From a virus: 31,754 nt of DNA. Under the pieces are notes generated by a model, which was not told the DNA's origin, made no database searches, and was given only the letters and a program-made list of their open reading frames with translations. Position 1 is the stretch's first letter; the number at the start of each line of letters is the position of its first letter. Shown here piece by piece: positions 1 through 21,968 of this stretch. A program made the translations under genes and the position numbers. Where the stretch lies: positions 1 to 31,754 of IMG/VR virus record IMGVR_UViG_3300038618_000047; one strand, written 5' to 3'.

Positions 1-1435
1 AATTTACAGAAAAACTTGTATTTGAATCTGTATATTCTGATTCACTGCCGTCATTATGATTAAATTTAATTGTTGCACCAGCCGAACCTCCAGTACGATC
101 AGTTGATATTGGTCTAATATATGAACTTGAATTGTCTACAGTAAAAGTTTGATTCCAATCTACACCACCTGCTGGTGTTTGTGAATAACTACCTGCTGAA
201 TAATTACTTAAAGTACCGTTAACACTTCCACTTGTTTGAGTGATAGAGTAAACTGAACTTATAAAATCGTTTGTAACGTCACTAGGGTTGTCTACAGATA
301 CAGAAAATCCTGTTGCTGGTACATCCCAATTATTAGTACTTGAAGGATTACCTGAAGCTGAAAATGAAGGAGTAAAAGTTGCTAAAGTTAATCTTAATAA
401 GTTAGATGAAAATTCTGCCGTTCTAACTGTGTTTGTTACGCCACTTTCTTTGTAACCTGTAAGTGTTCTATAATCTCCTGAAGTTGTAAATACAAATGGA
501 GAATCTGAACCTGATCCTGCTGAACCAGTGAAACCAACAGTACCAACTGAACCAGTGAAACCTGTTCCTGTATCTCCTTTTGATCCTGAATAACCTACGC
601 CACCATCTGAACCATCGGCGCCTTTTGATCCTGAATAACCTATTGTACCTTGATCGCCTTTTGAACCTGAAAATCCTACTGTGCCGGCTGAACCATCAGC
701 ACCTTTTGATCCTGAATAACCTATTGTACCTTGATCGCCTTTTGAACCTGAATATCCTAAACCACCTGCTGAACCAGTATAACCACCACCTGGCCCTTGA
801 GCACCTGTAGCACCTCTTGATCCAGTGTAACCTGCACCAACTGATCCTGTAAAACCAACTGAACCATCTGAACCTGCTGTTCCTGAATCTCCTTTTGATC
901 CTGCATAACCCGATGTACCTTGTAAACCTCGTGATCCTGAAAAACCAATTGTACCTTGTGTACCTTGATCACCTTTTGAACCTGAATAACCTATGGCGCC
1001 AGCTGAACCTGTGTCGCCTTTTGAACCTGAATAACCTATTGTACCTTGATCACCTTTTGATCCTGAATATCCTGCTCCGGTAGAACCAGTGAAACCAACA
1101 GCGCCATCTGATCCGTCTGAACCATCAACACCTTTTGATCCTGTGTAACCTACTCCTGTTGAACCAGTGAAACCAACTGTACCAGATGAACCTGTGTACC
1201 CTAAACCTCCTGAGGATCCTGTAAATCCTACAGCACCTGCCGAACCAGTGTAACCACCACCTGGCCCTTGAGCACCAACTGATCCTGTGAAACCTTGTGA
1301 ACCTGAATAACCACCTGGTGATCCAGCGGCTCCGTCAGCCCCTTTGGAACCTGTAAAACCTGTTGGACCTCCTGATCCTGTATAACCTATACGTCCTAGG
1401 CCGACACGAACACCGGCGTTCTGAATTATTGGCAT
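1..1435 (-). CDS. Collagen-like phage fibre protein, C-terminus cut by window edge
   Basis: An open frame runs from an ATG at 1435 leftwards to the window edge (478 codons) with no stop. After a short leader (MPIIQNAGVRVG) it carries roughly 95-100 Gly-X-Y triplets (about residues 13-310), dominated by GYTGS, GFTGS and GSKGDQGTIG units. A few one-residue slips (GSTGVGYTGS, GPGGGYTGS) break the register. Lysine sits in the Y position in about eleven GSK triplets. From about residue 315 the sequence becomes a Ser/Thr/Asn-rich beta-type C-terminal domain. Collagen-like triple-helical shafts are known in phage tail fibres; the role as a fibre here is inferred from family and context. An AGGGAG ribosome site lies at 1450-1455, unusually far (14 nt) from the ATG, but no other in-frame start exists between them. 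A late promoter octamer lies at 1504-1511. Confidence 0.85.
   Translation of the reverse strand, partial: MPIIQNAGVRVGLGRIGYTGSGGPTGFTGSKGADGAAGSPGGYSGSQGFTGSVGAQGPGGGYTGSAGAVGFTGSSGGLGYTGSSGTVGFTGSTGVGYTGSKGVDGSDGSDGAVGFTGSTGAGYSGSKGDQGTIGYSGSKGDTGSAGAIGYSGSKGDQGTQGTIGFSGSRGLQGTSGYAGSKGDSGTAGSDGSVGFTGSVGAGYTGSRGATGAQGPGGGYTGSAGGLGYSGSKGDQGTIGYSGSKGADGSAGTVGFSGSKGDQGTIGYSGSKGADGSDGGVGYSGSKGDTGTGFTGSVGTVGFTGSAGSGSDSPFVFTTSGDYRTLTGYKESGVTNTVRTAEFSSNLLRLTLATFTPSFSASGNPSSTNNWDVPATGFSVSVDNPSDVTNDFISSVYSITQTSGSVNGTLSNYSAGSYSQTPAGGVDWNQTFTVDNSSSYIRPISTDRTGGSAGATIKFNHNDGSESEYTDSNTSFSVN
510..1396 (-). repeat. Coding tandem repeats of the collagen-like shaft
   Basis: The region is a degenerate 9-nt (Gly-X-Y) periodicity with higher-order units. 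One exact example is a 51-nt block at 621-671 repeated identically at 702-752, an offset of 81 nt or 27 residues (nine triplets). A near copy lies around 1015-1070. The repeats are in frame, so slippage or recombination would change shaft length without breaking the gene. Confidence 0.85.
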
Positions 1436-5307: not shown

Positions 5308-5336
5308 TTGCCATTTTAGATAAAATATTATATACT
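5308..5336 (+). promoter_or_regulatory. Sigma70-type promoter of the riboswitch-btuB transcript
   Basis: TTGCCA (5308-5313) and TATACT (5331-5336) are separated by 17 nt. The predicted start is near 5343, about 9 nt before the first paired stem of the riboswitch. The -10 lies inside a perfect 22-nt palindrome. Confidence 0.7.
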
Positions 5337-5351: not shown

Positions 5352-5455
5352 ATGGCCTAAAAGTGTAGTGGGAAAGTGACGTGAAATTCGTCCAGATTAC
5401 TTGATACGGTTATACTCCGAATGCCACCTAGGCCATACAACGAGCAAGGAGACTC
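5352..5455 (+). promoter_or_regulatory. Cobalamin riboswitch (class II, env8-like), translational
   Basis: An 8-bp perfect closing stem pairs 5352-5359 with 5429-5436. Inside it lie the conserved GGGAA (5370-5374), a GACG/CGTC hairpin around TGAAATT (5378-5392), a CGG/CCG hairpin (5407-5419) and the GCCACC box (5423-5428). A 3-bp hairpin GAG/CTC (5442-5455) follows, whose loop holds the Shine-Dalgarno AAGGAG. CTCC at 5415-5418 is complementary to GGAG at 5448-5451, matching the loop5-loop13 kissing interaction that hides the ribosome site when cobalamin binds. The next element is the btuB-like ATG at 5459. From memory this sequence is nearly identical to the env8 hydroxocobalamin riboswitch solved by crystallography (PDB 4FRN). 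Expected behaviour is repression of translation by hydroxo- or methyl-cobalamin. Confidence 0.93.
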
Positions 5456-5458
5456 AAC

Positions 5459-7066
5459 ATGGTAAGATTAATTCTTATATTAATCTTGGTATGGGCTAAT
5501 GTTGCCTATTCCAAGGAAGATGATTGTAAATGGGATGACGATATTCCTTGTCTTACAATATATCCAAACATAAACAACTCAAACGCATTAGGTGATAAGA
5601 TAACACCTACACTTACAATTAAAAAATCTGAAATTCAAAAGTATAATCTAATTGATTTACCTAAAGTATTAAACTATGTTCAAGGTTTAGACATAACTCA
5701 ATCAGGTCCTACAGGTCAACAATCATCGGTGTTTTTAAGAGGCACTAATTCTAATCATACATTAGTATTATTAAATGGAATATCAATCAATGATTACTCT
5801 ACACCTACAGGCGCCCACGATGTTGGTCAAGACTTTATGTTTAATGTTGTACAAATAGATGTATACAAAGGGTCACAAGGTGCTCATTGGGGAGCAGACG
5901 CTGTTGGTGGTGCAATTAATTTTAGAACAACTGTAGATTATGATAAAAAATTAAGTATTGGTGGTAATGGTAATGATAAAACTATTAGTGGTAATTACTA
6001 TACTAAATTAAATGACTTTGATATATCTTTTTCAGCTGGCGAACATAAGTCACAAAACGTTTCTGTTTTATCAGGAGCTGACGAAAAAGATGGAACAAAT
6101 AATAAAACAATAGGTGTTAACGTAAGTAAATGGTATAATCAAATACATTGGCGAACATCTTGGTTTGCAAGAAACACTTTCTCTGATATAGATGGTCATA
6201 GTGTTTCCATACAAGACGGTAAATGGGCAGATAATACTTTCTTTGCCTTACAAACAGGTGTTGATTATTTAAATAATAGTTTAACTTTTCATACACATAA
6301 ATATGATAGAGACTATGACGACTCTCATTATGAAAGTGAAAACTATACAATAAGAGGAACACATCAAAAAGAAAAATATGGTTTTGGCTTTGATTATAAA
6401 CATAATGAATCTTTAGCAAGTCAACATCATAATCTAGGATACTTCTTTAATTTTTCACACAATATATTTTCATATCATCATAGGTTTGATGAAGAACACG
6501 AAACATATAAATTAGGTTTCTTTAAAGAGATAGAAGATGGTTTAAGTATAAGTGGTAGTACATCAACAAGTTATAAAGATAAGACAACATGGACTGCTAT
6601 TGAATATGGAGAATCACAAGAGTTAACATTAACTAAAAATAATTTTGCAACAACTATATTTAAAAATGATATTGGCGATTTAAATACTGACGGTATAGAG
6701 TTTAGTTATAATCAAGAAAATTCTAAATTTTTTATTAGTCATTTAAATAGTAAAAAGATTGATGTAGTACAATTAAGAAGACCTAATTGGTCTCTTGGTT
6801 TTATGCATACAAAAGAATTAGAAAATAACTTTTCTATAACTACTAATTACAAATATAAAGGCAGACATTTAGATGTGCATAATTCTAATTGGTCAACTAT
6901 AACAATGCCTGAAACACATTTGTTAGATTTAAATCTTGGATATAATTATTATGGTATAGATTTTGGTGTTAGTTTGTTAAATCTGTTTGATGAAAATTAT
7001 GAATCGCCTCATGGGTTTAGTCAAGAAGGAAGAAAGTTTACTTTAGGATTTAATAAATCTTTTTAA
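5459..7066 (+). CDS. btuB: BtuB-like TonB-dependent outer-membrane cobalamin receptor
   Basis: The 535-aa protein begins with a signal peptide (residues 1-18, hydrophobic core LILILILVWANVA). A plug domain follows at about 50-158, with DLPKVLNYVQGLDITQSGP, SSVFLRGTNSNHTLVLLNG and WGADAVGGAINFRTT. These closely track E. coli BtuB plug segments (RGTN.SHVLVL..G, YGSDAIGGVVN). The rest is alternating aromatic beta-strands ending in a terminal Phe, as in outer-membrane barrels. It is somewhat shorter than E. coli BtuB (about 590-610 aa), so some loops or strands may be reduced. The preceding cobalamin riboswitch makes B12 the most likely substrate. It would act in the host outer membrane with host TonB; no tonB or ABC permease genes are in the window. 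Its stop overlaps that of the convergent radical SAM gene. Confidence 0.9.
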   Translation: MVRLILILILVWANVAYSKEDDCKWDDDIPCLTIYPNINNSNALGDKITPTLTIKKSEIQKYNLIDLPKVLNYVQGLDITQSGPTGQQSSVFLRGTNSNHTLVLLNGISINDYSTPTGAHDVGQDFMFNVVQIDVYKGSQGAHWGADAVGGAINFRTTVDYDKKLSIGGNGNDKTISGNYYTKLNDFDISFSAGEHKSQNVSVLSGADEKDGTNNKTIGVNVSKWYNQIHWRTSWFARNTFSDIDGHSVSIQDGKWADNTFFALQTGVDYLNNSLTFHTHKYDRDYDDSHYESENYTIRGTHQKEKYGFGFDYKHNESLASQHHNLGYFFNFSHNIFSYHHRFDEEHETYKLGFFKEIEDGLSISGSTSTSYKDKTTWTAIEYGESQELTLTKNNFATTIFKNDIGDLNTDGIEFSYNQENSKFFISHLNSKKIDVVQLRRPNWSLGFMHTKELENNFSITTNYKYKGRHLDVHNSNWSTITMPETHLLDLNLGYNYYGIDFGVSLLNLFDENYESPHGFSQEGRKFTLGFNKSF

Positions 7067-8364
7067 CTTTGAACGTGTAATTTAGGAAATTTTTTCTTTT
7101 TAGGGTGATCAATTCCTATAGACTTTCTGTTTTCATTTAGTTTATCGGATTTATATCTTTCTATTTTATCAATACAATGTTGTTGAAACTCATAACCTAA
7201 TTGATTACCTAATTCGTAAACTTTTATGAATCTTTGAAATCTTATGTCAAAGTCAGAGTTTTTATTTTTCCATTTAAAGCCAAATTCTCCACCAAACAAT
7301 TCTCTATGTTCAAAGTCTAAAGGTGTATTTTCAAAAGTCATCATAACGTGGTGAGATATACTAATTAAATGTGAATACTTTGCATAATCTCTTAATAGTT
7401 GCATAGTATCCTCAAACATTTCTTCCGTTTCTGTAGGATATCCTACAATCAGTAAGAACTTCATTTTAATATTTCTTTCTCCTAGATTGGTAACAAAGTA
7501 TCTTATATCATCATTAGTAAACTTTTTTTTCATATGATTTCTAACACTTTCATTACCTGATTCTATACCCATTTCTAAACCACTGCAACCAGAGTTTGCC
7601 AAATTATCAAAATCTCCTTGAGAAAAAGTCTTTTCGGCTCTAACAATAAACTGTCCTTCCCATTTTACTTTTTTCTTTTTTATAGATAATTCGTAAACCA
7701 TATCCCTAAAATGTTTCATTGAACCATTAATCAATGAATCAGAAAATGCTATCTTTTCAGATTTAGTATGTTCGGCAACACTATGTATTTCGTCAGCAAT
7801 TTTTTTACCTGATTTCCATCTAAATTTTGGCCAGATACTTGCAACATCACAGAAAGTACAATTTCTAACACAACCTCTAGAACCAGATATTATAAATCTG
7901 CCATATTTGTGTTCTTTTATTACGTCTGAATAATCTGGTGGTGGCAAATCTTCTATGTTTTCTATCTGTTTTGGTAGTCTTCCGTTAATACCAGGATAAT
8001 CAAAATTTCCTTTTAAAAATTCTTGTACAGCATATTCTCCTTCTCCTACTATAAAATTTTTAGAAGGCCATTTTATATCAACACCTGATCCTCCGTAAAA
8101 AACATTATCATATTTTTCTCCTAATTTTAAACCATCTTCTTTTTGCATAAAAGAAAATACAGATATACCTAACCATCTAAATTTATATTTTGCAATTTCT
8201 TTGTGTATATTTTCTAAAGTATCTAATTGATTACCATCTATAACTTTAATTTTAAATCCTAATGGTTCTAAATATCCTTTTAAAAAACAAGGACCAGGTG
8301 CAGGTTTACCCTTATCCATTCCTGGCAGTGATGTAATAACGGCGTCATATAATGTATTATCCAT
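7063..8364 (-). CDS. Radical SAM protein with N-terminal B12-binding-type domain
   Basis: This 433-aa protein has a Rossmann-like N-terminus (about 1-125; GISVFSFM, VFYGGSGVDI, IVGEGEYAV) typical of the B12-binding domain of class B-like radical SAM enzymes. It lacks the DxHxxG lower-ligand motif, as many members do. The radical SAM core follows, with C165-x3-C169-x2-C172 (RGCVRNCTFC), FSDSLINGS, a GLEMGIESGN strand and a LLIVGYPTET strand. Members modify sugars, lipids or tRNA by methylation or rearrangement; the substrate here is unknown. The gene starts in the stop of the upstream oxygenase gene (TAATG) with GGAGG upstream. It is convergent with the btuB-like gene, overlapping it by 4 nt. 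Confidence 0.87.
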   Translation of the reverse strand: MDNTLYDAVITSLPGMDKGKPAPGPCFLKGYLEPLGFKIKVIDGNQLDTLENIHKEIAKYKFRWLGISVFSFMQKEDGLKLGEKYDNVFYGGSGVDIKWPSKNFIVGEGEYAVQEFLKGNFDYPGINGRLPKQIENIEDLPPPDYSDVIKEHKYGRFIISGSRGCVRNCTFCDVASIWPKFRWKSGKKIADEIHSVAEHTKSEKIAFSDSLINGSMKHFRDMVYELSIKKKKVKWEGQFIVRAEKTFSQGDFDNLANSGCSGLEMGIESGNESVRNHMKKKFTNDDIRYFVTNLGERNIKMKFLLIVGYPTETEEMFEDTMQLLRDYAKYSHLISISHHVMMTFENTPLDFEHRELFGGEFGFKWKNKNSDFDIRFQRFIKVYELGNQLGYEFQQHCIDKIERYKSDKLNENRKSIGIDHPKKKKFPKLHVQS

Positions 8365-9037: not shown

Positions 9038-9066
9038 TTGACAAATTAATCAAAAAATGTTATAAT
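9038..9066 (+). promoter_or_regulatory. Perfect-consensus sigma70 promoter of the long plus-strand cassette
   Basis: TTGACA (9038-9043), a 17-nt spacer and TATAAT (9061-9066) match the consensus at every position. Only 5 nt separate the -10 from the ATG at 9072, so the first mRNA would be leaderless or start within a base or two of the start codon. It is the only strong promoter seen before a run of about 11 kb of tightly packed genes. Confidence 0.85.
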
Positions 9067-9071
9067 AATAT

Positions 9072-9938
9072 ATGAATAGATTAAATGTAATAGTGACTTC
9101 TAAACCAGGCGATGGTTTAATGCATTATAGTTTTGAACAAGTACAATATCTAAACGATTTAGGTATTAATGCAAAACTTATAATCATACCTCACTATAGA
9201 TTTACAAAAGAAACTTACATAGAGGCCTTAACAGAAAAGTATATACATATGAAAAATGTATATTTTGATTATGAAGAAGCTGATGTAAATTTAATTATGG
9301 GTAGAAGTATGTTAACTTTGGCATATAAGAGTATTAAAGACTATGATAAAGATACACAATTAACTTTACGTTTGTTATTTAAGAAACCTCTTATATCAGT
9401 ATATTCAGAAAACCACCCTAAAGAATATCCTTTAGCACTAGAATTTTTTAAACCAGAAAAAGTAATTGACTTATGCGATCACGAGGTATATGTTAATGGT
9501 ATAGGTAGACAATTTGAAAAGATTATTAACTACAGTGTATATAAACCTATAGTCAGAGACGTTAAGTTTAAGTATCTATTTTTAGGTACAAACGAAAGTT
9601 ATTATACTGAACTAAAAAAACATATTCACAAATACCAAAATCATGGTATCTTGGCATACAAAGATAAGTACATAGACCATAATTTAAATCATGTATTTGT
9701 ACCTGTAAAAAATTTATTAGGTATGTTTGATACTTACGTTTATACTAAACACACATTTGATCCGGCACCAAGATTAATGCAAGAGTGTCGTTTCTTTGGA
9801 ATGAATTTTATATATGCAAGAGATAAAAATATTAAAGACGCAGGACCTGTTTATTATAAAAGGCCAGCAAACTGTTTAACGGACCCGACAAATAAAAGTA
9901 ATATAAATACACTTGTAGAAGCTATAAATCAATTATAA
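9072..9938 (+). CDS. Probable GT-B-like glycosyltransferase, function uncertain
   Basis: The 288-aa protein starts with a Rossmann strand (MNRLNVIVTSKPGDGLMHYSF) and a QYLNDLGINAKLIII segment typical of the first domain of GT-B enzymes. Its C-terminal FDPAPRLMQECRFFGMNFIYAR resembles the donor-site helix of GT4-like proteins, where PR..E..F.G precedes the last strand. No full family signature is visible, so the call rests on fold-level similarity and on the surrounding sugar genes. It is first in the long operon, with no ribosome site between the promoter and the ATG. Its TAA overlaps the next ATG by one base. Confidence 0.5.
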   Translation: MNRLNVIVTSKPGDGLMHYSFEQVQYLNDLGINAKLIIIPHYRFTKETYIEALTEKYIHMKNVYFDYEEADVNLIMGRSMLTLAYKSIKDYDKDTQLTLRLLFKKPLISVYSENHPKEYPLALEFFKPEKVIDLCDHEVYVNGIGRQFEKIINYSVYKPIVRDVKFKYLFLGTNESYYTELKKHIHKYQNHGILAYKDKYIDHNLNHVFVPVKNLLGMFDTYVYTKHTFDPAPRLMQECRFFGMNFIYARDKNIKDAGPVYYKRPANCLTDPTNKSNINTLVEAINQL

Positions 9939-10624
9939 TGTCATATTTTAAAACAAGAACAAACAATTTAAATTTGGATTTATCTCATAGATGTCCTTTA
10001 GAATGTCCTAATTGTCAAAGACAAACAGCCTTTACAAATAAAGGCTTAATACCACATGGGCGTGATCTAACGTTGCATGAAATGGATATGATAACAGATC
10101 ATTTTAAAGCAGTTGGCTTTTGTGGACAATTATCGGATCCTGTACACCACCCTAGATTTAATGAAATACTAGAATTATTTAATAAAAAAAATATTGGAGC
10201 TACAGTTCACAGCGCAGCCACGGCTAAACCTATATCATGGTTTATTAAATCATTTAAAGCAAATCCAAATGCAAGGTGGGTATTTGCCTGTGACGGCTTA
10301 CCAAAAGATAGTCATAAGTATAGAAAAAATCAAGACGGAGAAAAAATGTTTGAGATAATGAAAATAGCAAAACAACATTTAAATACCACACCACAATGGC
10401 AATACATAATATTTAATTACAATGAAAATAATATAGAAGAAGCCAAAAAAATGGCTTCGGACAACGGACTTGAATTTATATTGGTTCAATCTTCTAGATG
10501 GAGGGATGATGATGGTAAACCAGATCCTTTAAGACCAACAGGTTCTTCCGGAATTAAAACACTATTGACAAAACTAACTGAAAAAGATAAAGATGGAAAT
10601 TACAAATGGCAGAAATTGAATTAA
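9938..10624 (+). CDS. Radical SAM core protein (N-terminal part of a split SPASM-type enzyme)
   Basis: In this 228-aa protein C19-x3-C23-x2-C26 (CPLECPNC) follows LNLDLSHR near the N-terminus, as in radical SAM/SPASM enzymes. GFCGQLSDPVHHPRFNEI carries the glycine-rich strand that binds SAM. The core barrel continues to about residue 190. The expected C-terminal auxiliary-cluster domain is missing but is encoded by the next ORF, which overlaps by 19 nt in the -1 frame. Together they would make a roughly 350-aa SPASM-type enzyme. The substrate (peptide or sugar) is unknown. Confidence 0.82.
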   Translation: MSYFKTRTNNLNLDLSHRCPLECPNCQRQTAFTNKGLIPHGRDLTLHEMDMITDHFKAVGFCGQLSDPVHHPRFNEILELFNKKNIGATVHSAATAKPISWFIKSFKANPNARWVFACDGLPKDSHKYRKNQDGEKMFEIMKIAKQHLNTTPQWQYIIFNYNENNIEEAKKMASDNGLEFILVQSSRWRDDDGKPDPLRPTGSSGIKTLLTKLTEKDKDGNYKWQKLN

Positions 10625-10998
10625 GTCCTCTTTGTTTACCAGATAGAGAAGGCACAAGACTAGACAAAATGCCTATGGCAGTTAACAATAGAGGTTATCT
10701 ATTACCATGTTGTTGGTGTGATGAAAAAAATATAATAAATTCAAAACAATTTAAACCTTTGTATGATGTAAGTAAACTTGAAGATTATAATAGTATAAAT
10801 GAAATACTTGAAACAAAAGAATGGATTGAGTTTGAAAATGATTTAATTAATGCTAGAGACAAGGGAGATGAAGACAGTTTAAAAAAAGTACAACCAGTTT
10901 GTTTACATCATTGTAAGGTAAGAAAAAAAGAAGATAAAATGAAAATAGAAACTCACTTTTCAGCTGAAGGTAAAAAAATAGTAGAGGACATAAAATAA
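10606..10998 (+). CDS. SPASM-like Cys-rich protein (C-terminal partner of the preceding radical SAM)
   Basis: This 130-aa protein resembles a free-standing SPASM/auxiliary Fe-S domain. C10, then a VNNRGYLLPCCWCD segment (C35, C36, C38), with PVCLHHC near the end (C99, C103). In fused enzymes the same pattern (nnrGyllpCC...C..C) follows the radical SAM barrel directly. Its ATG lies 19 nt inside the upstream gene, so translation is coupled and the two products probably assemble. Its TAA shares one base with the next ATG (TAATG). Confidence 0.72.
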   Translation: MAEIELSPLCLPDREGTRLDKMPMAVNNRGYLLPCCWCDEKNIINSKQFKPLYDVSKLEDYNSINEILETKEWIEFENDLINARDKGDEDSLKKVQPVCLHHCKVRKKEDKMKIETHFSAEGKKIVEDIK

Positions 10999-12050
10999 TG
11001 GATTCATGGAATAAAGAATATGCACTAAACAAAGAAGAATATCTTAAACTTTTTGATGAGTGTATGCAAGAAAAACAAGAACAAAATATAGAGTTTTTAG
11101 AAAAAACAATTACAGATACAATAGGAAGAAAATATGCTGTTGCTTGTCAAACCGGTACAGACGCTTTAATGTTTTCTTTAAAATGTTTAAATATAAAACC
11201 AGGCGATGAAGTATTGACAACCAACTTTTCGTGGATATCAACGGCGTCTTGTATATCTATGGTAGGTGCAACTCCTGTATTTTGCGATATAGATAAAAAA
11301 ACTTATCATATGTCACTTGACAGTATCAAACGTATGTATTCAGACAAAGTAAAAGCAATTGTCTATCCACATTTATTTGGTAATATGTCAGATATAACAG
11401 AGATATTAGAATTTTGTAAAGAAAAAAACATATCATTTATAGAAGACGCAGCTCAGGCTATAGGTTCTAGTCTTAATGGTACTAAAGCAGGTACTCTAGG
11501 AGAATTGAGTACAATAAGCTTTAATGCAAACAAAACGATAGGTGGAATCGCCGGAGGTGGTGTGGTATTGACAGATAACAAAGACTATGCTGATATGTGT
11601 ATTAAGCTAAGAAAACATGGTAATCATGAGATACTAGGATACAACTCTAAAATGTTATTCTTTAATGCAAAGTTTATTGATTATAGATTAAAAAAACTAG
11701 ATCAATATGTTGAGGCTAAACAAATAATAGCAAAAAAATATGATGAACAACTAAAGGACGACATAATTGTACAACCAACCTCAAATGGTGTCAATCATAC
11801 ATATCATAAATATATTGTCAGATTTGAAGACAAAGAAACAAGAAACAGAGTTAAAAAAAGATTAAATGCCAATGTACACTATGAAAAACCTATATCTGAA
11901 CGCCCTATGTATAAAAACATATCACATAGAAGCGATGATTGTATTAATTGTAAACATATCAGTGATACAATTTTAACATTACCAATTGATCCTTTTTTAA
12001 CAGATGAAGAAATAAATAACACATGTAATACAATATTAGCCTCACTGTGA
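10998..12050 (+). CDS. DegT/DnrJ/EryC1-family PLP sugar aminotransferase
   Basis: The 350-aa protein is normal length for the family. CQTGTDALMFSL (about 50-61) forms the cofactor phosphate site, EDAAQAIGS has the PLP-nitrogen aspartate D150, and SFNANKTIGGIAGGG holds the Schiff-base lysine K179. These enzymes convert keto-sugars (nucleotide-linked) to amino sugars with glutamate as donor. In this operon it probably supplies an aminodeoxy sugar for the neighbouring transferases. Its TGA overlaps the GTG start of the next gene. Confidence 0.9.
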   Translation: MDSWNKEYALNKEEYLKLFDECMQEKQEQNIEFLEKTITDTIGRKYAVACQTGTDALMFSLKCLNIKPGDEVLTTNFSWISTASCISMVGATPVFCDIDKKTYHMSLDSIKRMYSDKVKAIVYPHLFGNMSDITEILEFCKEKNISFIEDAAQAIGSSLNGTKAGTLGELSTISFNANKTIGGIAGGGVVLTDNKDYADMCIKLRKHGNHEILGYNSKMLFFNAKFIDYRLKKLDQYVEAKQIIAKKYDEQLKDDIIVQPTSNGVNHTYHKYIVRFEDKETRNRVKKRLNANVHYEKPISERPMYKNISHRSDDCINCKHISDTILTLPIDPFLTDEEINNTCNTILASL

Positions 12051-12349
12051 TAGAAATAATAGCAAATCAAACTTTAGATCAAATCAGCTACATTGATAGT
12101 AATGGTAATCCTGTTGCTATAACTGATCAAAATCTTATTAAGACCTGTCAAATGATAAAAAGAGCATTAGGCACCAGTGATATATTTGATGAGAGTTTAA
12201 TTAATGAGTACAATGAACCGGTTTATGAATATATAGTTGAAAAAACTTATATAACACCAGAGTATGACTACGGTCCATTAAACTTTAAAGAAGGACCTAA
12301 ACAAAAAATGAAAATAGCATTTAATAAATTATTCTGGAGTAAAATATGA
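12047..12349 (+). CDS. Unknown 100-aa protein
   Basis: I do not recognise this protein. It starts with GTG inside the stop of the aminotransferase gene (GTGA) and ends in an ATGA overlap with the radical SAM gene, so it is firmly embedded in the operon. It is acidic in the middle (DIFDESLINEYNEPVYEYIVE) and basic at the end (KQKMKIAFNKLFWSKI). It has no signal peptide, no Cys cluster and no membrane segment. Its place directly before a radical SAM gene would fit an accessory or substrate protein, but nothing in the sequence proves that. Confidence 0.65.
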   Translation: MIEIIANQTLDQISYIDSNGNPVAITDQNLIKTCQMIKRALGTSDIFDESLINEYNEPVYEYIVEKTYITPEYDYGPLNFKEGPKQKMKIAFNKLFWSKI

Positions 12350-13188
12350 AAAAATTTGATCTAGAATACGCTCAAAAGAATTACTTAGCCGTAGACTTTT
12401 TTCTATCTATGTCTTGTAATAAAGATTGTCATTATTGTACAAGTTATACTTTAGAAATGAGAAACTTGACAGTAGATTTAGATTTTTTAAGATCAACCTT
12501 AGAAGCGTTAAAAGAATATAAAGTTAGAATATGTTTACTTGGTGGTGAACCAGGTTTAATTAAAAACCTTCGTGAAGTAATTGCAATGGTAAAAGAATAT
12601 CCTAATTTTATTCCTCAAGTTTTATCTAATTCTTTTATAAGAAAAAGATATCCTGAAATATTAGAAGATCCTGAAATATTATACGTAGAACACTTAACAC
12701 TGGATTTTTATCCAGATAAAATAAAAAAATTAGGTAACTACGATTATCTAGCACCTAATGATATGAATAATTATAATGTAGTACTTAAAACGCCTAATTA
12801 CTTTAAGTACATAGCTAACTATCCAGAATTTAAAAAACAATTAGAACATAAAAATACTATGTTCAAAGCATTTAACGGTAGAACACCATCTAAAGGTGAT
12901 GTAGAAGAAGTACACACACAGGCGGCTGAAATAGATCGTAAAATGTGTGCTGCTTTTCCTATGGTACCTGTTATAGACTTTGAAAAAAAACATATAGTAC
13001 ACTGTAGTAAAAAATTTGCAAATAACACCGAATTGTCTAGGTCTTTTCCTATGACTAAAGAAAACATTGATAAGATGATGAACTTCCAGTTATTCAAATA
13101 TGAGAAGTATTGTGTAACATGTAAAGAATATGTACAACCGAAAGGACATTTTCCTATTGAAAAGTATAGTAATATATTAAAATTATGA
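12346..13188 (+). CDS. Radical SAM protein
   Basis: In this 280-aa protein C24-x3-C28-x2-C31 (MSCNKDCHYC) follows a VDFFLS strand, and LLGGEPGL near residue 65 is the SAM-amino GGE motif. The C-terminal third has further Cys (CVTCKEY near residue 260, others near 204 and 223) that could bind an extra cluster. The middle (LTLDFYPDKIKKL) is not diagnostic of any subfamily I can name. It is translationally coupled on both sides (ATGA at the start, ATGATG at the end). Confidence 0.83.
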   Translation: MKKFDLEYAQKNYLAVDFFLSMSCNKDCHYCTSYTLEMRNLTVDLDFLRSTLEALKEYKVRICLLGGEPGLIKNLREVIAMVKEYPNFIPQVLSNSFIRKRYPEILEDPEILYVEHLTLDFYPDKIKKLGNYDYLAPNDMNNYNVVLKTPNYFKYIANYPEFKKQLEHKNTMFKAFNGRTPSKGDVEEVHTQAAEIDRKMCAAFPMVPVIDFEKKHIVHCSKKFANNTELSRSFPMTKENIDKMMNFQLFKYEKYCVTCKEYVQPKGHFPIEKYSNILKL

Positions 13189-13883
13189 TGAAAACGGTTG
13201 ATATTTCTGTTACTAATCTTTGTAACATTAAATGCCCACAATGTAAAAGAACTGATCCTAACGGATTAGGAACTCACAAGTTACTTCCTTTGGATACTTG
13301 GTCATTAGAACAGTTTCAAACTGCTTTTCCAATAAATGATTTAGATGACATGGAAGAATATAGTTTTTGTGGTTTATGGGGAGATCCTTTGATGGCCAAA
13401 GATATAAAAAAGATTATATATTACATAATAGACAATTCAATAAAATCTAAAGTAACCATAACAACAAATGGTAGTATTAGGTCAGAAAAGTTTTATGAAG
13501 AAATAGGTAATTATTGTGATAAAAGATTAGCAATCGTTTTTGATATAGATGGTATTAATGAAGAAATGCACACCAAATATAGACGTGGTGCTTCATTAAA
13601 AAAATCTTTAGATAATATGTATGCTTTATCAAAAACAAACGCAATACCGTTATCTCAAACAATTATATTTAAACATAACCAGGATTATCAAAAAGATATA
13701 CTAGATTTAGTAAAGAAATGGGGATCACATAACCATGAATTTTGTTTATCAGATAGATTTGATGGTAAATCAAAATGGCATTTTGTCAATGAAAAAGGAG
13801 AAGATGAATATTTAGAAGCTGCTACAGACACAACAGTACAAATAGCAGTAGACAAATATCCAAAAAATAAAGAAAATGGCTAA
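13185..13883 (+). CDS. Radical SAM core protein (N-terminal part of a second split SPASM-type enzyme)
   Basis: In this 232-aa protein, VDISVTNLC13-x3-C17-x2-C20 begins it exactly as in SPASM enzymes, with FCGLWGDPLMAKDI as the SAM-binding strand and TITTNGSIRS following. IVFDIDGINEEMHTKYRRGA closely resembles strand 5 of peptide-modifying or sugar SPASM enzymes. The barrel ends around residue 200 and the C-terminal Fe-S part is on the next ORF. There are two adjacent possible ATGs (13185, 13188); the first overlaps the upstream stop. Confidence 0.83.
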   Translation: MMKTVDISVTNLCNIKCPQCKRTDPNGLGTHKLLPLDTWSLEQFQTAFPINDLDDMEEYSFCGLWGDPLMAKDIKKIIYYIIDNSIKSKVTITTNGSIRSEKFYEEIGNYCDKRLAIVFDIDGINEEMHTKYRRGASLKKSLDNMYALSKTNAIPLSQTIIFKHNQDYQKDILDLVKKWGSHNHEFCLSDRFDGKSKWHFVNEKGEDEYLEAATDTTVQIAVDKYPKNKENG

Positions 13884-14190
13884 AAGTATTATTTGCAAAT
13901 GGAAAGAAAGTAGTAGGTGTTTAATACAACCTGACGGACAAGTGTTTCAATGTTGTTTTCTAAAATTACATTTTGTAGATTATGAAAACAAAAGAGAAGT
14001 TGATGGCAGATCACATCCTATTATAAAAGACTATCTATCTAAAAAAGAAGAATATAACATAAAAAATGACTCTTTAAAAAACATACTAAATAAAGAGTGG
14101 TTTCAAAAGACTTTACCAAACAGTTTGATTGATTATGATAAGGCACCTAAACCTTGTAAAAGAGTTTGTACAATAGAAAGTAAAAAATAA
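13876..14190 (+). CDS. SPASM-like Cys-rich protein (C-terminal partner of the second radical SAM)
   Basis: In this 104-aa protein, C7, C15, then LIQPDGQVFQCCF (C26, C27) and PCKRVC near the end (C94, C98) give the SPASM-type pattern seen in the 10606 ORF. It overlaps the radical SAM core gene by 8 nt in the +1 frame, while the first pair overlaps in the -1 frame, so the two splits are not copies of a single event. Both begin with ATGGC inside an A-rich stretch. Confidence 0.72.
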   Translation: MAKSIICKWKESSRCLIQPDGQVFQCCFLKLHFVDYENKREVDGRSHPIIKDYLSKKEEYNIKNDSLKNILNKEWFQKTLPNSLIDYDKAPKPCKRVCTIESKK

Positions 14191-14193
14191 ATT

Positions 14194-14562
14194 ATGAATG
14201 AACCATCAATTGATCCACAAGTAAACGCTACTTTATCAGATATTAAAGACGATCAAGAAATGCGTCTAGAGTTTATTAATAAAATTACAGAGAAACTTAA
14301 AACTTGTTATGATCCTGAAATTTCTACAGACATATACACACTCGGACTTATATATGATGTTAAAGTTACCTCTGAAAGATACGTATTTGTATTAATGAGT
14401 TTAACATCTGCTTTTTGTCCGGCCGTAGATGAAATAGTTAACGGAGTAAGACAAGCCGTTGAAAGTATACCAGGACTTAAATGTAAAGTTAGAATTACAA
14501 TGACACCTACGTGGTCTAGGGATATGATTGATCCTGAAATAAGAGATTTAATGGGTTTATAA
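14194..14562 (+). CDS. DUF59/MIP18 family, SufT/PaaD-like Fe-S cluster assembly factor
   Basis: This 122-aa protein has the family hallmarks: CYDPEISTDIYTLGLIYDV (about 38-56), LTSAFCPAVDEI with the conserved Cys C75, and RITMTPTWSRDMI. Family members help mature [4Fe-4S] proteins (SufT) or the PaaABCE oxygenase (PaaD). It lies directly after two split radical SAM genes, so a role in loading their clusters is a reasonable inference. It follows its neighbour by 3 nt. Confidence 0.85.
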   Translation: MNEPSIDPQVNATLSDIKDDQEMRLEFINKITEKLKTCYDPEISTDIYTLGLIYDVKVTSERYVFVLMSLTSAFCPAVDEIVNGVRQAVESIPGLKCKVRITMTPTWSRDMIDPEIRDLMGL

Positions 14563-14565
14563 ATA
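14558..14565 (+). promoter_or_regulatory. Candidate internal late promoter before the carbamoyltransferase
   Basis: TATAAATA overlaps the DUF59 stop codon and lies 12 nt before the ATG at 14578 (24 nt before the in-frame ATG at 14590). In such AT-rich DNA a chance match is possible. Confidence 0.4.
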
Positions 14566-14577
14566 AATTTATTAAGA

Positions 14578-16113
14578 ATGAAGAATAAAATGAAAATAAA
14601 TGCTGTTGCGATAAACTTACATGATCATAATACCTATGATGGTGTATACCACAATCAAAGAGAAAGACACACACGTTTTAAACATAACTTACCTTATAAA
14701 ACAGAAGCTTATGATCATCAATCAGATATATTAAATCCTGGTGATTATACTTTAAATGATCAGTTTTTAAGTGAATATCTTAAAAAGCCAGAGGAGGGTG
14801 TTTTAGCATTTACATATACTTATGGTGGTATAAGAAAATCAAAAGAAGAATTATTTAATACTATATTCAAAGGTCACGATGAGATTTTAGACTATGAAGT
14901 TAAATCATTATGGCAAAATCATTATAAAGACGGTATCTATTATATTGATCATCATCAATCACATGCTGCTTATGCATTTTTAAATTCAGGTTATCAACAA
15001 AGTGATGTACTTGCAATAGATGGTATTGGTTCAAGATATAGATGTTTATTTTTTGATAGAGACGGTAAAGCAACTGATCTATCATCTAAACTGCCTATCG
15101 GGTGGTTATGGAATCATATGTCTAATCTTACAGGTTTCGGAACATTAGGTGCAAGTAAACTTATGGGTAAAGTTGGTTATGGTAAACATAGTGATTATTA
15201 TTACAATGTATTATCAACAATATTAGAAGGACCTATTTTAGAAAGAAAATATCCAGAATGGAAACAAATAGAAATCACCAAACACGGTATAAATGATTTA
15301 GCATATACACTACAAGAAATTACTATGGAAAGAATTAAAGAACATGTTTATCCTTTAAAAACTTCAGATAACTTATGTCTTTCTGGTGGTGTTGCATATA
15401 ACGGTTATTGTAATGAAATGTTTACCGAAAAATGGGATAATGTATTTGTTCCACCTGCAATAGGTGATGAAGGCCAAGCTATTGGTGCTTATCAACATGC
15501 CGATTATACAATAAATAATAATGTACATAAGTCTAACGTTTATGCTGGTAAATCATATGATTACTATAAAGGTGCTGAAAAGTTAACTTCATACAAAGAA
15601 GTTGCTCAGGCAATTGCTGATGGTAAAATAGTAGGTTGGTTTCAAGGTAAATCAGAAAGTGGTAATAGAGCATTAGGTAATAGAAGTATATTGGCTGATG
15701 TAAGAAATCCAGATATTAAAGATATTATTAACAGTACTATTAAAATGAGAGAAGACTTTAGACCATTTGCACCAGCAGTTTTAGAAGAACATTATAAACA
15801 ATATTTTGAAACTAATCAACCTAGTCCTTATATGTCAAGAATATGTAAAGTTAAACCAGAAATGAAAGAAGTAATACCTGGTGTTACTCACGTTGATGGT
15901 ACAGCTAGAATACAAACAGTTAACAAAAACGACAACAGTAAATTCTATAAACTTATAAGAGAATTTGGAGAAATTACTGGTGTACCTATGTTGCTTAATA
16001 CAAGTTTTAATTGTCAAGAACCAATAGTAGAAACACCAGAAAATGCATTAAGAACTTTTAAAAAAACTGCACTAGATATATTAGTCATTAACGATTATAT
16101 TTACAGAAAATGA
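14578..16113 (+). CDS. NodU/CmcH-family O-carbamoyltransferase
   Basis: This 511-aa protein's N-terminal Kae1/ASKHA-like domain contains IDHHQSHAAYAF near residue 124 (metal-binding histidines), and LAIDGIGSR follows. LCLSGGVAYNG and FVPPAIGDEGQAIGA are the nucleotide-binding parts. The YrdC-like C-terminal region has GWFQGKSESGNRALGNRSIL near residue 353 and FRPFAPAV near 394. It uses carbamoyl phosphate and ATP to carbamoylate a hydroxyl, typically on a sugar. Similar genes occur in marine T4-like phages. A second in-frame ATG at residue 5 is an alternative start. Its TGA overlaps the next ATG. Confidence 0.93.
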   Translation: MKNKMKINAVAINLHDHNTYDGVYHNQRERHTRFKHNLPYKTEAYDHQSDILNPGDYTLNDQFLSEYLKKPEEGVLAFTYTYGGIRKSKEELFNTIFKGHDEILDYEVKSLWQNHYKDGIYYIDHHQSHAAYAFLNSGYQQSDVLAIDGIGSRYRCLFFDRDGKATDLSSKLPIGWLWNHMSNLTGFGTLGASKLMGKVGYGKHSDYYYNVLSTILEGPILERKYPEWKQIEITKHGINDLAYTLQEITMERIKEHVYPLKTSDNLCLSGGVAYNGYCNEMFTEKWDNVFVPPAIGDEGQAIGAYQHADYTINNNVHKSNVYAGKSYDYYKGAEKLTSYKEVAQAIADGKIVGWFQGKSESGNRALGNRSILADVRNPDIKDIINSTIKMREDFRPFAPAVLEEHYKQYFETNQPSPYMSRICKVKPEMKEVIPGVTHVDGTARIQTVNKNDNSKFYKLIREFGEITGVPMLLNTSFNCQEPIVETPENALRTFKKTALDILVINDYIYRK

Positions 16114-16733
16114 TAGATTTAAATTTATTAAAAAATTTGATGGAAGAAATTAGAGAGAATGACGACCTATTAGATTCGTTAAGTCCTAATCAATTCAATA
16201 CTAAATTAAAACTTATAAAACATATTAATAAAATAGTACCATTAGAAAAAGAAGATGATATAGCTATCTTTGGTTGTTGGTATGGTAGTATATTGATACC
16301 TGCTTTTTATGATAAAGTTAAAAGAATTACAGCAATAGATTTAGATCCACAAGTTATTAGTAGAAACAAATATAGAATATATCCTGGATATAAACAACTT
16401 GATTTTGTATCTAAAGATTGTTTTGAATGGGCTGAAGATTCTAACAGAATTAAAAAAACAAAATTAATCATTAATACTTCTTGTGAACATATGAAACCAA
16501 TGAAAGAGTTAAAGATATTAAGTAAAATAAATTCTTATTTTGCATTTACTTCAAATAATATGTATGACATTGAAGGACATACAAACTGTGTAGACACAAT
16601 AGAAGATTTTAAAGCACAATTACCAGAAACGGCAACCGTTCTTGCTGAAGAAAAGGTAACAGACTATAGAGGAACAAGATTCTTATTAGTTGGAGAATTA
16701 AAAACAGATAACCCAGCGTACCACAAGGAGTGA
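16110..16733 (+). CDS. Class I SAM-dependent methyltransferase-like protein
   Basis: In this 207-aa protein a helical N-terminus leads to DDIAIFGCWYGSILIPAF (about 49-66), a variant of the SAM-binding glycine loop (GCWYGS instead of GxGxG). ITAIDLDPQVISR provides the acidic ribose-binding residue, and LIINTSCEHM the fourth strand. The family and substrate are uncertain. It could methylate the sugar product of the cassette. It is coupled to the carbamoyltransferase by an ATGA overlap. Confidence 0.68.
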   Translation: MIDLNLLKNLMEEIRENDDLLDSLSPNQFNTKLKLIKHINKIVPLEKEDDIAIFGCWYGSILIPAFYDKVKRITAIDLDPQVISRNKYRIYPGYKQLDFVSKDCFEWAEDSNRIKKTKLIINTSCEHMKPMKELKILSKINSYFAFTSNNMYDIEGHTNCVDTIEDFKAQLPETATVLAEEKVTDYRGTRFLLVGELKTDNPAYHKE

Positions 16734-16734
16734 A

Positions 16735-17619
16735 ATGAAAAGAGTAATATTCAGTTTATTCATAGATATACCTAAAGAAGAATTAGATATATTTGATAAA
16801 CATATAAAAAAAGAAGGAGCCATACCTACAAACTACAATACTAAAAATGAGTTTCAAAAAAACTATAAACAGTTAGTAGAAAATAAAGTTAACTATGCTA
16901 AATCAATAGGTATAGATTTTGTAATGGTAGAAAATGATACAAAGTGTGGTTCTTTAAATACTAGTTATATTAATTATTATAAATGGATGAGAGAATTTTA
17001 TCCAGAAATTACAAGTTATAATATAGTTAATTTTTTCAAAATACATTTACTATATGAGTTTAGTAAAGAGTATGATGAGGTGTTATATCTAGACTTTGAT
17101 GTAGTTACCAATACTACTGAAAACTTTTTTGAAGTGTGGGACTTATCAAAAGGTGTATGCGTTTTAAATAATAACGAGAGAGTATCTCCTATTCAAAAGA
17201 TAACTGATAAAACACAAACTATAAGAAGTCCTAATGCAAAATTCTATAATGCTCAGGCTATGTTAATAGAAAAAGGATTAAGTCCTGAAAATGATGTTAT
17301 CAATACAGGTATAGTAGGTATTAGTAAAAAACATTTAGATCAATTAGAATATTTTAAAGATTTTAAAGAAACAATACAATTAATGAAAAGTCTTATAGGA
17401 GAAACAGATATATTTCCTAAAAAGATTGCTGATTTTTTTGGTTATGATAATGAAACAATATTTGCTGTTAAATTAAAAGAACATAAAGTACCGGTACAAT
17501 GGTTAGATCAAAAATGGCATTATTTCTTTGATACACAAATGTTTATACCTTCAACTGCAAACTTCATACATGCCATTAACAAAAGGTTTGATATAGTTTG
17601 GAGAAACATTAATGCTTAG
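16735..17619 (+). CDS. GT-A glycosyltransferase (GT8-like)
   Basis: In this 294-aa protein a DxD motif sits in EVLYLDFDVVTN near residue 119, after a helix that carries YYKWMREFYPEI. NTGIVGISKKHLDQL lies downstream, as in nucleotide-sugar transferases that build surface glycans. An AAGGAG site lies 4 nt before the ATG, one of the few clear ribosome sites in the cassette, suggesting independent re-initiation here. It overlaps the next gene by 8 nt. Confidence 0.72.
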   Translation: MKRVIFSLFIDIPKEELDIFDKHIKKEGAIPTNYNTKNEFQKNYKQLVENKVNYAKSIGIDFVMVENDTKCGSLNTSYINYYKWMREFYPEITSYNIVNFFKIHLLYEFSKEYDEVLYLDFDVVTNTTENFFEVWDLSKGVCVLNNNERVSPIQKITDKTQTIRSPNAKFYNAQAMLIEKGLSPENDVINTGIVGISKKHLDQLEYFKDFKETIQLMKSLIGETDIFPKKIADFFGYDNETIFAVKLKEHKVPVQWLDQKWHYFFDTQMFIPSTANFIHAINKRFDIVWRNINA

Positions 17620-18400
17620 AATATGTACTGTATATTATAAAGGTAGTTACACACCAGAATATGTTGGTAACTTTTATAAAGCTTTAAGAAAGAATAGTAC
17701 CATACCTTTTATATCAGTATGTATAAGTGATGATCCTAATGTTGAAGCTGACATTGTACTACCATATAATCATCATAGTGATATTAAAAAACACTGGCAT
17801 AAATTAAAATTCTTTAGTCCTTTATTTGGTGGCCAACAACCAGGTGATGATATAATAATAATGGATATAGATCAAGTTGTCGTAGGTAATGTAGACGATC
17901 TTATAGGTTTTCCTGTTGGAGATAATGAGTTAGTATCTTATGGTGTTTGGTGGAATAATGATACTAAAAAAATTAAAGATTCTAAAAAATTACGTGATCA
18001 TAATATTCTACCGTTAAACGGAGGCTTTTACAAGTTTAAATCAGGACAATTAAAGCATGTATGGGACGATTTTGCACTCAACCCACCTTATTGGCAACTA
18101 CACTATTATAATATAGGTAAAGTACATTTTAAGTATTATGGAGAACAAAATTATGTTGACTGGAAAATATTTGAAAAAGAAAGTAAGTTAACTTTAACAC
18201 CACCAGAGTGGTTAGGTAAATACACTGAAAATAAAGAAGATATGATAAAATTAAACATATTATATTCAAAAACGTTTGATACTGATTATATGTTAATAGA
18301 TGAACCAGATGAAAAGTTAAAGATTTTTCACTATACAGGTGTAGGTAGAACTGTACATGAAAACAATACTAACGCTTTGTATAAATATTGGAAACAATAG
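17612..18400 (+). CDS. GT-A glycosyltransferase
   Basis: In this 262-aa protein the N-terminal strand LRICTVYYKGSYTPEYVGNF is typical of the nucleotide-sugar-binding half. IIIMDIDQVVVGNVDDL near residue 84 has the DxD metal site. LPLNGGFYKFKSGQL resembles the acceptor-side loop of GT8-like enzymes. It shares this general plan with the flanking proteins at 16735 and 19339 but is not a close copy. Donor and acceptor are unknown. Confidence 0.74.
   Translation: MLRICTVYYKGSYTPEYVGNFYKALRKNSTIPFISVCISDDPNVEADIVLPYNHHSDIKKHWHKLKFFSPLFGGQQPGDDIIIMDIDQVVVGNVDDLIGFPVGDNELVSYGVWWNNDTKKIKDSKKLRDHNILPLNGGFYKFKSGQLKHVWDDFALNPPYWQLHYYNIGKVHFKYYGEQNYVDWKIFEKESKLTLTPPEWLGKYTENKEDMIKLNILYSKTFDTDYMLIDEPDEKLKIFHYTGVGRTVHENNTNALYKYWKQ
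18380..18387 (+). promoter_or_regulatory. Candidate late promoter for the nitroreductase gene
   Basis: TATAAATA lies inside the end of the preceding gene. The predicted start is near 18393, giving a 29-nt leader that contains AAGGAG before the ATG at 18422. Confidence 0.45.
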
Positions 18401-18421
18401 CCAATACCAATAAGGAGTAAA

Positions 18422-19324
18422 ATGGATAGAAAAGATAGATTAAAAGCAATGATGTCTGATGTTCGTAGTGAACAAATGACACAAATGAGAAAAAGTTTAT
18501 ATGAAATAGATAATGAAAAAGATATTATATTAGACGCTCAAAAATGTCAAAGAAACTGGAACTATGATAAAAAAATTGAATACGAATATATGGACTATTT
18601 TCTATGGTTAGCTAAAGAAGCTCCCTCAAAACAACATGAGGGTTACTATGATGTTTATTATACAACAGATAGAAAAGTTATTCAAGAATGTAGCAACTAT
18701 ACATGGGGTTGTACTCACGACAGAGAGCCACCTTCAACTTGGCAAAATTCACAACAAAACGCAAGTGCTTATATATTATTTGTTGCTAAAGAACCTATAA
18801 CTCAAATGAATTGTAACGCTGATGGTACGTTAAAATCTAATAAAACACCAGCACGTTGGGAAAATTCTTACGTTAGTATTGGTATAGCTTTAGGTATAAT
18901 ATTAAGAGCTGCTAATGCTTTAGGATTTGTAACTGGTTGTAACAAAAGTCATGGTGATATGTCAGGCGATGAATTTTGGCATAAAAAATTAGGAATACTT
19001 GACGATGTAAAAGCAGGAACTAAAAAGATTGCTTATGGTATTGGTATTGGATTTCCAAATGAAGGAAGACCTAGATGGGAATCAGATCAAACAATGTTGG
19101 CTTTAGGAGCTGCTAACGGTAGTGACCTAACTACAGATCATACTTTAGAAAAACATCCTAGAACAGGTCAACCAACTAGAAAAATTAAACTAGTTGATAT
19201 TACTGAACATAAAGGTAAAATTATGAAAGACCCTTATGGTAATGAACATCTTATACCTGATAATGCTGATATTAAAATAAATCAGCCTAGAGAAAGAGGA
19301 ATAAAAGTTATAGAGATTAAGTAG
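18422..19324 (+). CDS. Nitroreductase-fold (FMN) protein
   Basis: In this 300-aa protein QKCQRNWNYDK (about 40-50), the LWLAKEAPSKQHEGYYDVYY segment, SIGIALGIILRAANALGFVTG and YGIGIGFPNEGRPRW match the nitroreductase/FMN oxidoreductase layout seen in marine phage genomes. The expected N-terminal arginine cluster for FMN phosphate is represented by QRNW. It may act in redox steps of the cassette or in thiol/nitrogen metabolism; its true substrate is unknown. AAGGAG lies 4 nt before the ATG. Confidence 0.72.
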   Translation: MDRKDRLKAMMSDVRSEQMTQMRKSLYEIDNEKDIILDAQKCQRNWNYDKKIEYEYMDYFLWLAKEAPSKQHEGYYDVYYTTDRKVIQECSNYTWGCTHDREPPSTWQNSQQNASAYILFVAKEPITQMNCNADGTLKSNKTPARWENSYVSIGIALGIILRAANALGFVTGCNKSHGDMSGDEFWHKKLGILDDVKAGTKKIAYGIGIGFPNEGRPRWESDQTMLALGAANGSDLTTDHTLEKHPRTGQPTRKIKLVDITEHKGKIMKDPYGNEHLIPDNADIKINQPRERGIKVIEIK

Positions 19325-19338
19325 GTTTAAATTATATT

Positions 19339-19926
19339 ATGAAAAGAATAATAGCTTGTAGGTTTGGTAACAAATTTACTCAATGGCATGTTGATAATTT
19401 AAAGTATATGATAGATTTCCACTCTGGAATATCTTATGATAGTTTTGAAGTTATTGAAAATGACATTTATGGTAATTGGTATAACAAGTTTCAAATGTAT
19501 GATAAATTTAGAGACGGAGAAAATCTATACTTTGATTTAGATGTTATTATATGGAAAGAATTACCAGATTTATTCAGAAAAGATTTTACTATATTAAATG
19601 ATCTATGGTGGAGAGAAGAAGCTCATACACCACTAAACTCAACTATAGTTTCTTGGACAGGTGATGTATCTCATATATGGGATAAATTTAAAGAAGACGA
19701 AGATGTTTACCTAGAAAAATATGATAAAGGTAGTGATGAATTTTACTATAGAGAAATAGATTATAAAAACTATGATAAAGTTTGTCCTTCTATTAAAAAC
19801 TATATTTATGAAATACCACCAAAAGAATTTAGTATTTGTACTCTAGGTCAAATGAACCACCTATTAGAACCAGGTTGGCAAGGTTGGTGGTCAAATTTTA
19901 TTCTGCCTCACTATAAAGATCAATAG
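19339..19926 (+). CDS. Short GT-A glycosyltransferase-like protein
   Basis: In this 195-aa protein NLYFDLDVIIWKEL near residue 65 has the DxD motif. WNKFQMYD-like residues precede it (NWYNKFQMYDKF), and FTILNDLWW plus LNSTIVSWTGD follow, as in small GT8/GT-A proteins of phages. It is shorter than typical family members, so it may be a minimal enzyme. It ends convergent with the gene behind it, overlapping by 29 nt. Confidence 0.68.
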   Translation: MKRIIACRFGNKFTQWHVDNLKYMIDFHSGISYDSFEVIENDIYGNWYNKFQMYDKFRDGENLYFDLDVIIWKELPDLFRKDFTILNDLWWREEAHTPLNSTIVSWTGDVSHIWDKFKEDEDVYLEKYDKGSDEFYYREIDYKNYDKVCPSIKNYIYEIPPKEFSICTLGQMNHLLEPGWQGWWSNFILPHYKDQ

Positions 19927-21726: not shown

Positions 21727-21968
21727 TATTTTTTATCCTTTATCAATTTTTTTATTTCAAATAATTCTTTCTTTAAAGTATTTATCTCTTTACAAAGACC
21801 TCTTACCATATCACTATTATTTTCTCTAGTCTTAACTCTTTTCATATAGTTGTTATAGTCTGCTCTGTTAGTATTAATTATAGCACTAGTGTTTACGTCT
21901 CTTACTAAACTTTCAAATCCTTCAACTTTTAATGTTTTAACTGCCATATTTTTATACTGCCAATGCAA
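21726..21968 (-). CDS. Small coiled-coil virion-associated protein
   Basis: In this 80-aa protein DVNTSAIINTNRADYNNYMKR and a C-terminal coiled coil (LCKEINTLKKELFEIKKLI) resemble a small protein found among structural genes of marine T4-like phages. The start is uncertain. The ATG at 21968 has AGAGG 6 nt upstream but overlaps the large gene before it by 17 nt. The ATG at 21947 (MAVKTLKVEG) has no good ribosome site but gives a start like its neighbour's MAVKNIS. Confidence 0.65.
   Translation of the reverse strand: MHWQYKNMAVKTLKVEGFESLVRDVNTSAIINTNRADYNNYMKRVKTRENNSDMVRGLCKEINTLKKELFEIKKLIKDKK

Follow-up and report, generated by a model that had tools for sequence, protein, structure and literature searches.

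A short cobalamin riboswitch of the env8 type precedes a btuB-like gene in a T4-like marine phage related to the SAR11 myophages. We interpret this arrangement as feedback-controlled import of B12 during infection, and we give this interpretation a probability of about 85%. The stretch of DNA analysed, hereafter the window, is a virus record of 31,754 bases. The riboswitch fold, the placement of the Shine-Dalgarno (SD) sequence in L13 as read from the sequence, the BtuB fold of the gene product, the viral setting and the recurrence of the element were observed. The ligand, the repression, the import and the benefit to the phage are inferred from these observations and from analogy.

The leader of the btuB-like gene contains the following features.
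5352-5436, plus strand: P1 extension of two pairs (AU.. / ..AU), the closing helix of the aptamer (sequence, minimum free energy fold)
5354-5434, plus strand: AdoCbl-II (class II cobalamin) riboswitch aptamer (RF01689, covariation across phage and SAR11 copies)
5399-5402, plus strand: L5 loop ACUU (Rfam structure; invariant in all aligned short-type copies)
5442-5455, plus strand: P13 hairpin, the expression platform, GAG-CAAGGAGA-CTC (sequence)
5446-5451, plus strand: SD sequence AAGGAG within L13, 7 nt upstream of the ATG at 5459 (sequence)

When the whole window was scanned with cmscan against 4227 Rfam families, the sole match was RF01689 (AdoCbl-II). This match covers the full length of the model (positions 1-81 of 81) and, at 75.2 bits (E=3e-17), lies above the gathering score of 36.5. 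The initial annotation had claimed a class II cobalamin aptamer with every element and had named the Rfam cobalamin covariance models as a check; the full-length match and the covariation described below bear this claim out. The class II elements are complete in the leader (P1/P3, P4, P5, P6 and L5, followed by P13). The P1 strands, ATGGCCTA (5352-5359) and TAGGCCAT (5429-5436), pair with each other, and this helix is present in the minimum free energy fold too. In addition, our own covariance model, for which 17 aptamers of phages and SAR11 were used, gave 93 bits for the riboswitch and 11.7 bits for the next-best match in the window.

Covariation was assessed in 16 distinct phage and SAR11 aptamers. 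In this alignment, 95.7% of the cells were paired and two-sided changes were found at 13 of the 22 pairs. None of the slid control alignments, and almost none of the shuffled ones, came near the real aptamer alignment. Thus, the aptamer structure is strongly supported by covariation across the phage and SAR11 copies. The plain minimum free energy of the leader was not significant (z=0.32) and gives no support alone. An unremarkable folding energy is expected of RNAs in which tertiary contacts matter.

The aptamer is followed by a 7-nt linker and then by P13, in which GAG (5442-5444) pairs with CTC (5453-5455) and encloses the 8-nt loop L13 (5445-5452). CUU in L5 (5400-5402) is complementary to AAG in L13 (5446-5448), and pairing between them is possible. 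This agrees with a further claim of the initial annotation, namely that the SD sequence lies inside an L13 loop able to kiss L5. In 10 distinct short-type phage copies, the binding core, L5 and L13 are invariant and the flanks vary; within the short phage type taken alone, variation is low. P13 shows one compensatory pair, a change from G-C to A-U in the copy L277. Because the kissing pairs between L5 and L13 never vary among the short-type copies, the kissing loop rests on conservation, not on covariation. The SD sequence in L13 is conserved across the short-type copies with three exceptions (L001, L025 and L027), which read GGAA. In these three leaders, L13 is GCAAGGAAACTC, not GCAAGGAGACTC, and the three kissing bases are kept.

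The window is identical at 101 of 102 positions to the presumed sequence of env8 (4FRN); the one difference is C11 to U at position 5364. No difference from this presumed sequence was seen in six loci of two contigs, L018 and L004. That either is the deposited 4FRN RNA is presumptive and should be treated as a lead. The selectivity nucleotides of env8 that are named in the literature, G19, A20 and A68 (PMC11838749), are in register in the window as G5372, A5373 and A5421 when 5354 is numbered 1. In env8, the ribosome-binding site lies in the P13 loop, which docks on L5 upon ligand binding, and the site is thereby hidden (PMC10907184).

A candidate promoter precedes the leader.
5308-5336, plus strand: sigma-70-type promoter TTGCCA-17-TATACT (consensus scan, 10 of 12 matches, 17-nt spacer)

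RNA from this promoter would begin about 10 nt upstream of the aptamer. A consensus scan alone is no evidence of promoter function; most relatives of the window type have kept both hexamers. Elsewhere in the window, a perfect TTGACA-17-TATAAT promoter sequence (9038-9072) lies ahead of an apparently leaderless open reading frame at 9072.

On the basis of these features, we propose the following mechanism. A host-type sigma-70 polymerase would transcribe the leader and btuB from 5308-5336, and early timing is inferred. When cobalamin is scarce, the P13 loop would be free, the SD sequence would be read, phage BtuB would be made and B12 would be imported. The ligand may be hydroxo- or methylcobalamin, by analogy with env8. 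When cobalamin binds to the four-way junction, L5 would dock on L13, the SD sequence would be hidden and BtuB translation would stop. Rising cobalamin would mean less BtuB and, in effect, negative feedback on B12 import. The imported B12 might serve a neighbouring B12-type radical SAM enzyme, host B12 enzymes, or both.

The gene downstream of the riboswitch is as follows.
5459-7066, plus strand: btuB-like gene for a TonB-dependent cobalamin receptor of 535 aa (Pfam, NCBIfam, PDB, fold)

The product has a signal-peptide-like N terminus and a TonB plug domain (Pfam Plug, E=1.1e-17, above the cut-off). Its best NCBIfam match is TIGR01779 (TonB-B12, E=2.9e-27), and E. coli BtuB chains lead its PDB sequence matches (E=1.6e-23). 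We compared its structure model (mean pLDDT 79.9) with PDB folds: the top 12 are all E. coli BtuB, with a best TM-score of 0.83. The TIGR01779 equivalog cut-off was not reached (95.5 versus 599.7 bits). Because BtuB leads the family, PDB sequence and fold matches and yet the equivalog cut-off is missed, we use the name BtuB-like. According to the structure model, the product is a BtuB-like protein with the plug and beta-barrel of the BtuB fold; import by this protein is inferred.

The next gene runs in the opposite direction.
7063-8364, minus strand: B12-binding-type radical SAM enzyme, convergent with btuB with a 4-nt overlap

Its product matches Radical_SAM (E=5.1e-18) and contains the CxxxCxxC motif. 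The N-terminal B12-binding domain PF02310 is weak in the window copy (14.5 bits versus a cut-off of 32.1); PF02310 was matched in all 7 relatives (best E=1.4e-4). The closest folds of its structure model, which is of modest quality (pLDDT 65.6), are MgmA, OxsB and TsrM, all cobalamin-dependent. The convergent arrangement with btuB is found in the window and in many relatives, and a B12-type radical SAM gene lies near btuB in L224 and L277 too. These recurrent neighbours suggest that imported B12 feeds a phage enzyme, although this is an inference. The infection logic proposed above is drawn from this adjacency of a BtuB-like receptor and a B12-type radical SAM enzyme.

In a complete pattern scan, the short-type riboswitch core was found in 30 IMG/VR contigs, the largest of which (L224) is 172 kb. 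Each of the 30 elements runs into a btuB frame, either whole or cut by the contig end. Phage btuB is present in about 65 contigs, many of them without a riboswitch, and in several of these the -10 box comes so close to the ATG that the gene looks leaderless. L132/L134 and L133/L135 have a common promoter region and a nearly identical btuB body; between the two, a cassette composed of the riboswitch and the signal peptide is present in one pair and absent from the other. Three phage contigs (L019, L026 and L264) carry a SAR11-like platform. The phage isolate collection yielded neither a DNA match nor a match to BtuB over its full length; its few protein matches, in records labelled Salmonella and Acinetobacter, are btuB of the bacterial type. 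Many matches from a loose motif scan of viral contigs were rejected, as the covariance model did not recognize them as riboswitches.

Several further observations were made in these contigs. The cassette locus is at 1200-1500 in L132 and at 3150-3570 in L133. In L132, L134, L136-L139, L151, L152, L155 and L163, a phage gene is apparently leaderless, with a sigma-70-like -10 box that stops a few bases short of the ATG. Upstream of 1058 in L010, and also in L011 and L012, the riboswitch lacks the usual promoter, and a possible GC-rich hairpin (GGCCGGCTAGGAGT...ACTCCGGCC) lies just upstream of it. In L157, L159, L160, L162, L165, L166 and L168, btuB is followed by a gene that resembles, by eye, the large subunit of a tripartite tricarboxylate transporter; these contigs, up to 165 kb in length, have no riboswitch. 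The divergent phage BtuBs (L264 1241-3774, L183 and L277) adjoin DUF6580, a membrane protein, which also neighbours btuB in SAR11. In L264, the SAR11-like platform precedes DUF6580 and btuB.

Among cellular BtuBs, the closest come from SAR11 genomes, both single-cell and other. A genome scan with the phage protein alone as query gave no match, and the SAR11 BtuBs were found by plug-region alignment with E. coli BtuB. An AdoCbl-II aptamer lies upstream of btuB, in chromosomal surroundings, in 10 of the 11 nearest SAR11 loci. Of 197 Pelagibacteraceae genomes, 41 have the aptamer, usually before btuB, and a BtuB match was obtained in 38 of these 41. Among the inspected SAR11 copies, we found no short P13 with an SD sequence in L13. 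The short form was also absent from 397 Pelagibacterales genomes by DNA search. When 385 Alphaproteobacteria and 399 Pseudomonadota genomes were scanned with a full-length short-type model, all matches were partial and of the SAR11 type. An exact match of 20 nt, present in 16 SAR11 genomes, was discarded as chance; the four loci that were read are antisense to a polyphosphate-kinase-like gene. In several SAR11 leaders, the SD sequence could pair with a GTGGC-like segment of the long platform. An ExbD search in SAR11 could not show the TonB machinery, since the family also includes TolR.

A tree was built from 54 BtuBs, in which the phage and SAR11 proteins form one group (100/100), apart from those of other proteobacteria. 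The SAR11 clade has most of the phage rows as its sister, and three phage rows, which are divergent, lie outside both. It should be mentioned that the SAR11 rows were chosen by plug similarity and that more distant SAR11 BtuBs were left out. Both phage branches contain the short riboswitch (the window and L224 in one, L183 and L277 in the other). Therefore, the riboswitch and btuB have probably been shuffled.

The riboswitch could be functional and the BtuB-like protein could nevertheless not serve B12 enzymes; it might block superinfection at the cell surface or import another compound, the riboswitch having simply come with the gene. We regard this as unlikely. In enterobacteria, phages are known to use BtuB as a receptor, and the relatives without a riboswitch retain btuB, which implies that B12 control is not essential to the value of the gene. 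However, two different B12 riboswitch platforms precede phage btuB, and B12-type radical SAM neighbours recur. Similarly, although the protein is under the BtuB equivalog cut-off, its best fold matches are BtuB, and the DUF6580 partner is common to the SAR11 btuB locus and some phages.

It seems very improbable to us that the leader is merely a relic, which came from a host together with btuB and has lost its switching in the phage. In favour of a relic, the Rfam score of the window copy is below those of the SAR11 copies (75 versus up to 101 bits), a base of L13 is changed in L001, L025 and L027, and some phages lost the riboswitch or never had it. Against it, the binding core, L5 and P13 are nearly invariant in the distinct phage copies while the flanks vary, and two BtuB lineages that are deeply separated have both retained the short form ahead of the gene. 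Moreover, the window matches the presumed sequence of an RNA that has been shown to bind and switch.

Two structural genes bear on the viral nature of the window.
21952-28026, minus strand: VrlC-like structural protein, 2024 aa (full-length identity to pelagimyophages)
28038-29507, minus strand: T4-like baseplate wedge subunit, gp8 type (phrog_438, E=3.8e-141)

The VrlC-like protein shares 66% identity over its full length with its counterpart in Pelagibacter phage Mosig and 45% with the one in HTVC008M, and baseplate genes adjoin its gene. The window and Mosig have a common gene order: baseplate (gp8), VrlC, epimerase, and sugar and radical SAM genes. By sequence comparison, the window is thus assigned to a T4-like phage fragment related to the SAR11 myophages (pelagimyophages). 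Cellular or chimeric DNA, for which only the 31.8-kb length of the fragment and its many host-like metabolic genes could be cited, is virtually ruled out by the baseplate and VrlC-like genes in Mosig order on the same contig, the presence of the element in 30 IMG/VR contigs of up to 172 kb, and the UvsX- and ssDNA-binding-like genes beside btuB in L264. The initial claim of an env8-kind class II riboswitch in a phage, placed to control a viral gene, is supported by the Rfam match, the 30 viral contigs, the synteny with a cultured SAR11 myophage and the absence of the short form from the sampled cells.

Given the btuB and aptamer relatives in SAR11, SAR11 is the likely host of the phage. Mosig, the nearest cultured relative, infects HTCC1062, which has been reported to have no TonB-dependent transporter (PMC3400609). 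In Mosig, btuB is not annotated in the compared stretch and none was found by tblastn. These two points, the TIGR01779 score, the invariant kissing pairs and the minimum free energy count against feedback-controlled B12 import. Two other regions of the window were noted. A collagen-like protein with GFTGS/GYTGS repeats (2-1435, minus strand) is probably a tail fibre. A cluster at 9938-19926, common to Mosig, contains small radical SAM, aminotransferase, SUF-associated, carbamoyltransferase (NodU-like) and glycosyltransferase-like genes; surface sugar modification is its likely role.

Beyond feedback-controlled B12 import itself, we tentatively suggest, with somewhat less than even confidence, that the short env8 form represents the SAR11 btuB riboswitch in a minimal version specific to phages. 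The riboswitch and signal peptide would then be a movable cassette, gained and lost at the same promoter, and the short form a viral invention that tunes B12 import during infection. If this is true, the best-studied B12 riboswitch structure is viral in origin. Since alleles that have the cassette and alleles that lack it both occur in nature, the value of the switch can be put to the test.

Neither the RNA class nor the gene family is new, and riboswitches have been described in phages before; it is the setting that is unexpected and informative. A survey of pelagimyophages found no riboswitches (PMC7029224), and in our literature search no paper described a phage with a cobalamin riboswitch or with btuB. 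Here, a virus appears to use an RNA switch to sense a vitamin and to control a transporter of that vitamin, which is paired with a B12-type enzyme. Structural biology has worked with env8 as a reference RNA for more than a decade without knowing its genome; the RNA would now have a native setting, consisting of a phage, its promoter and the controlled gene, together with a probable group of hosts. For the cells, a field study called the B12 regulation of SAR11 btuB unknown (PMC9296465), and the B12 riboswitch before btuB in many SAR11 cells bears on this regulation.

Among known systems, the window element most resembles the env8 hydroxocobalamin riboswitch (PDB 4FRG/4FRN), with a short P13 directly after the aptamer, the ribosome-binding site in L13 and complementarity to L5. 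Whereas env8 is described as a sequence from an environmental metagenome (PMC10907184), in the window the genome, the promoter and the controlled gene are visible, and all are viral. The SAR11 btuB riboswitches have the same AdoCbl-II aptamer ahead of btuB; however, all inspected copies have a long, AGTCCGCTGTTGAATGAAGGCCAGGAAAAGTC-like platform. The phage protein has the same fold as E. coli BtuB, with 35% identity in the plug region over about 120 aa, but it is shorter and falls under the equivalog cut-off. Unlike E. coli BtuB, the phage protein and the SAR11 BtuBs have an N-terminal Cys-x-Trp...Pro-Cys motif. Structured RNA switches or candidates are known in other T4-like marine phages: the manA and wcaG motifs in cyanophages (PMC2864571) and the glutamine (glnA) riboswitch in Melnitz and Mosig (PMC9004378). 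These are similar in kind but differ from the element described here in their ligands and in their genes.
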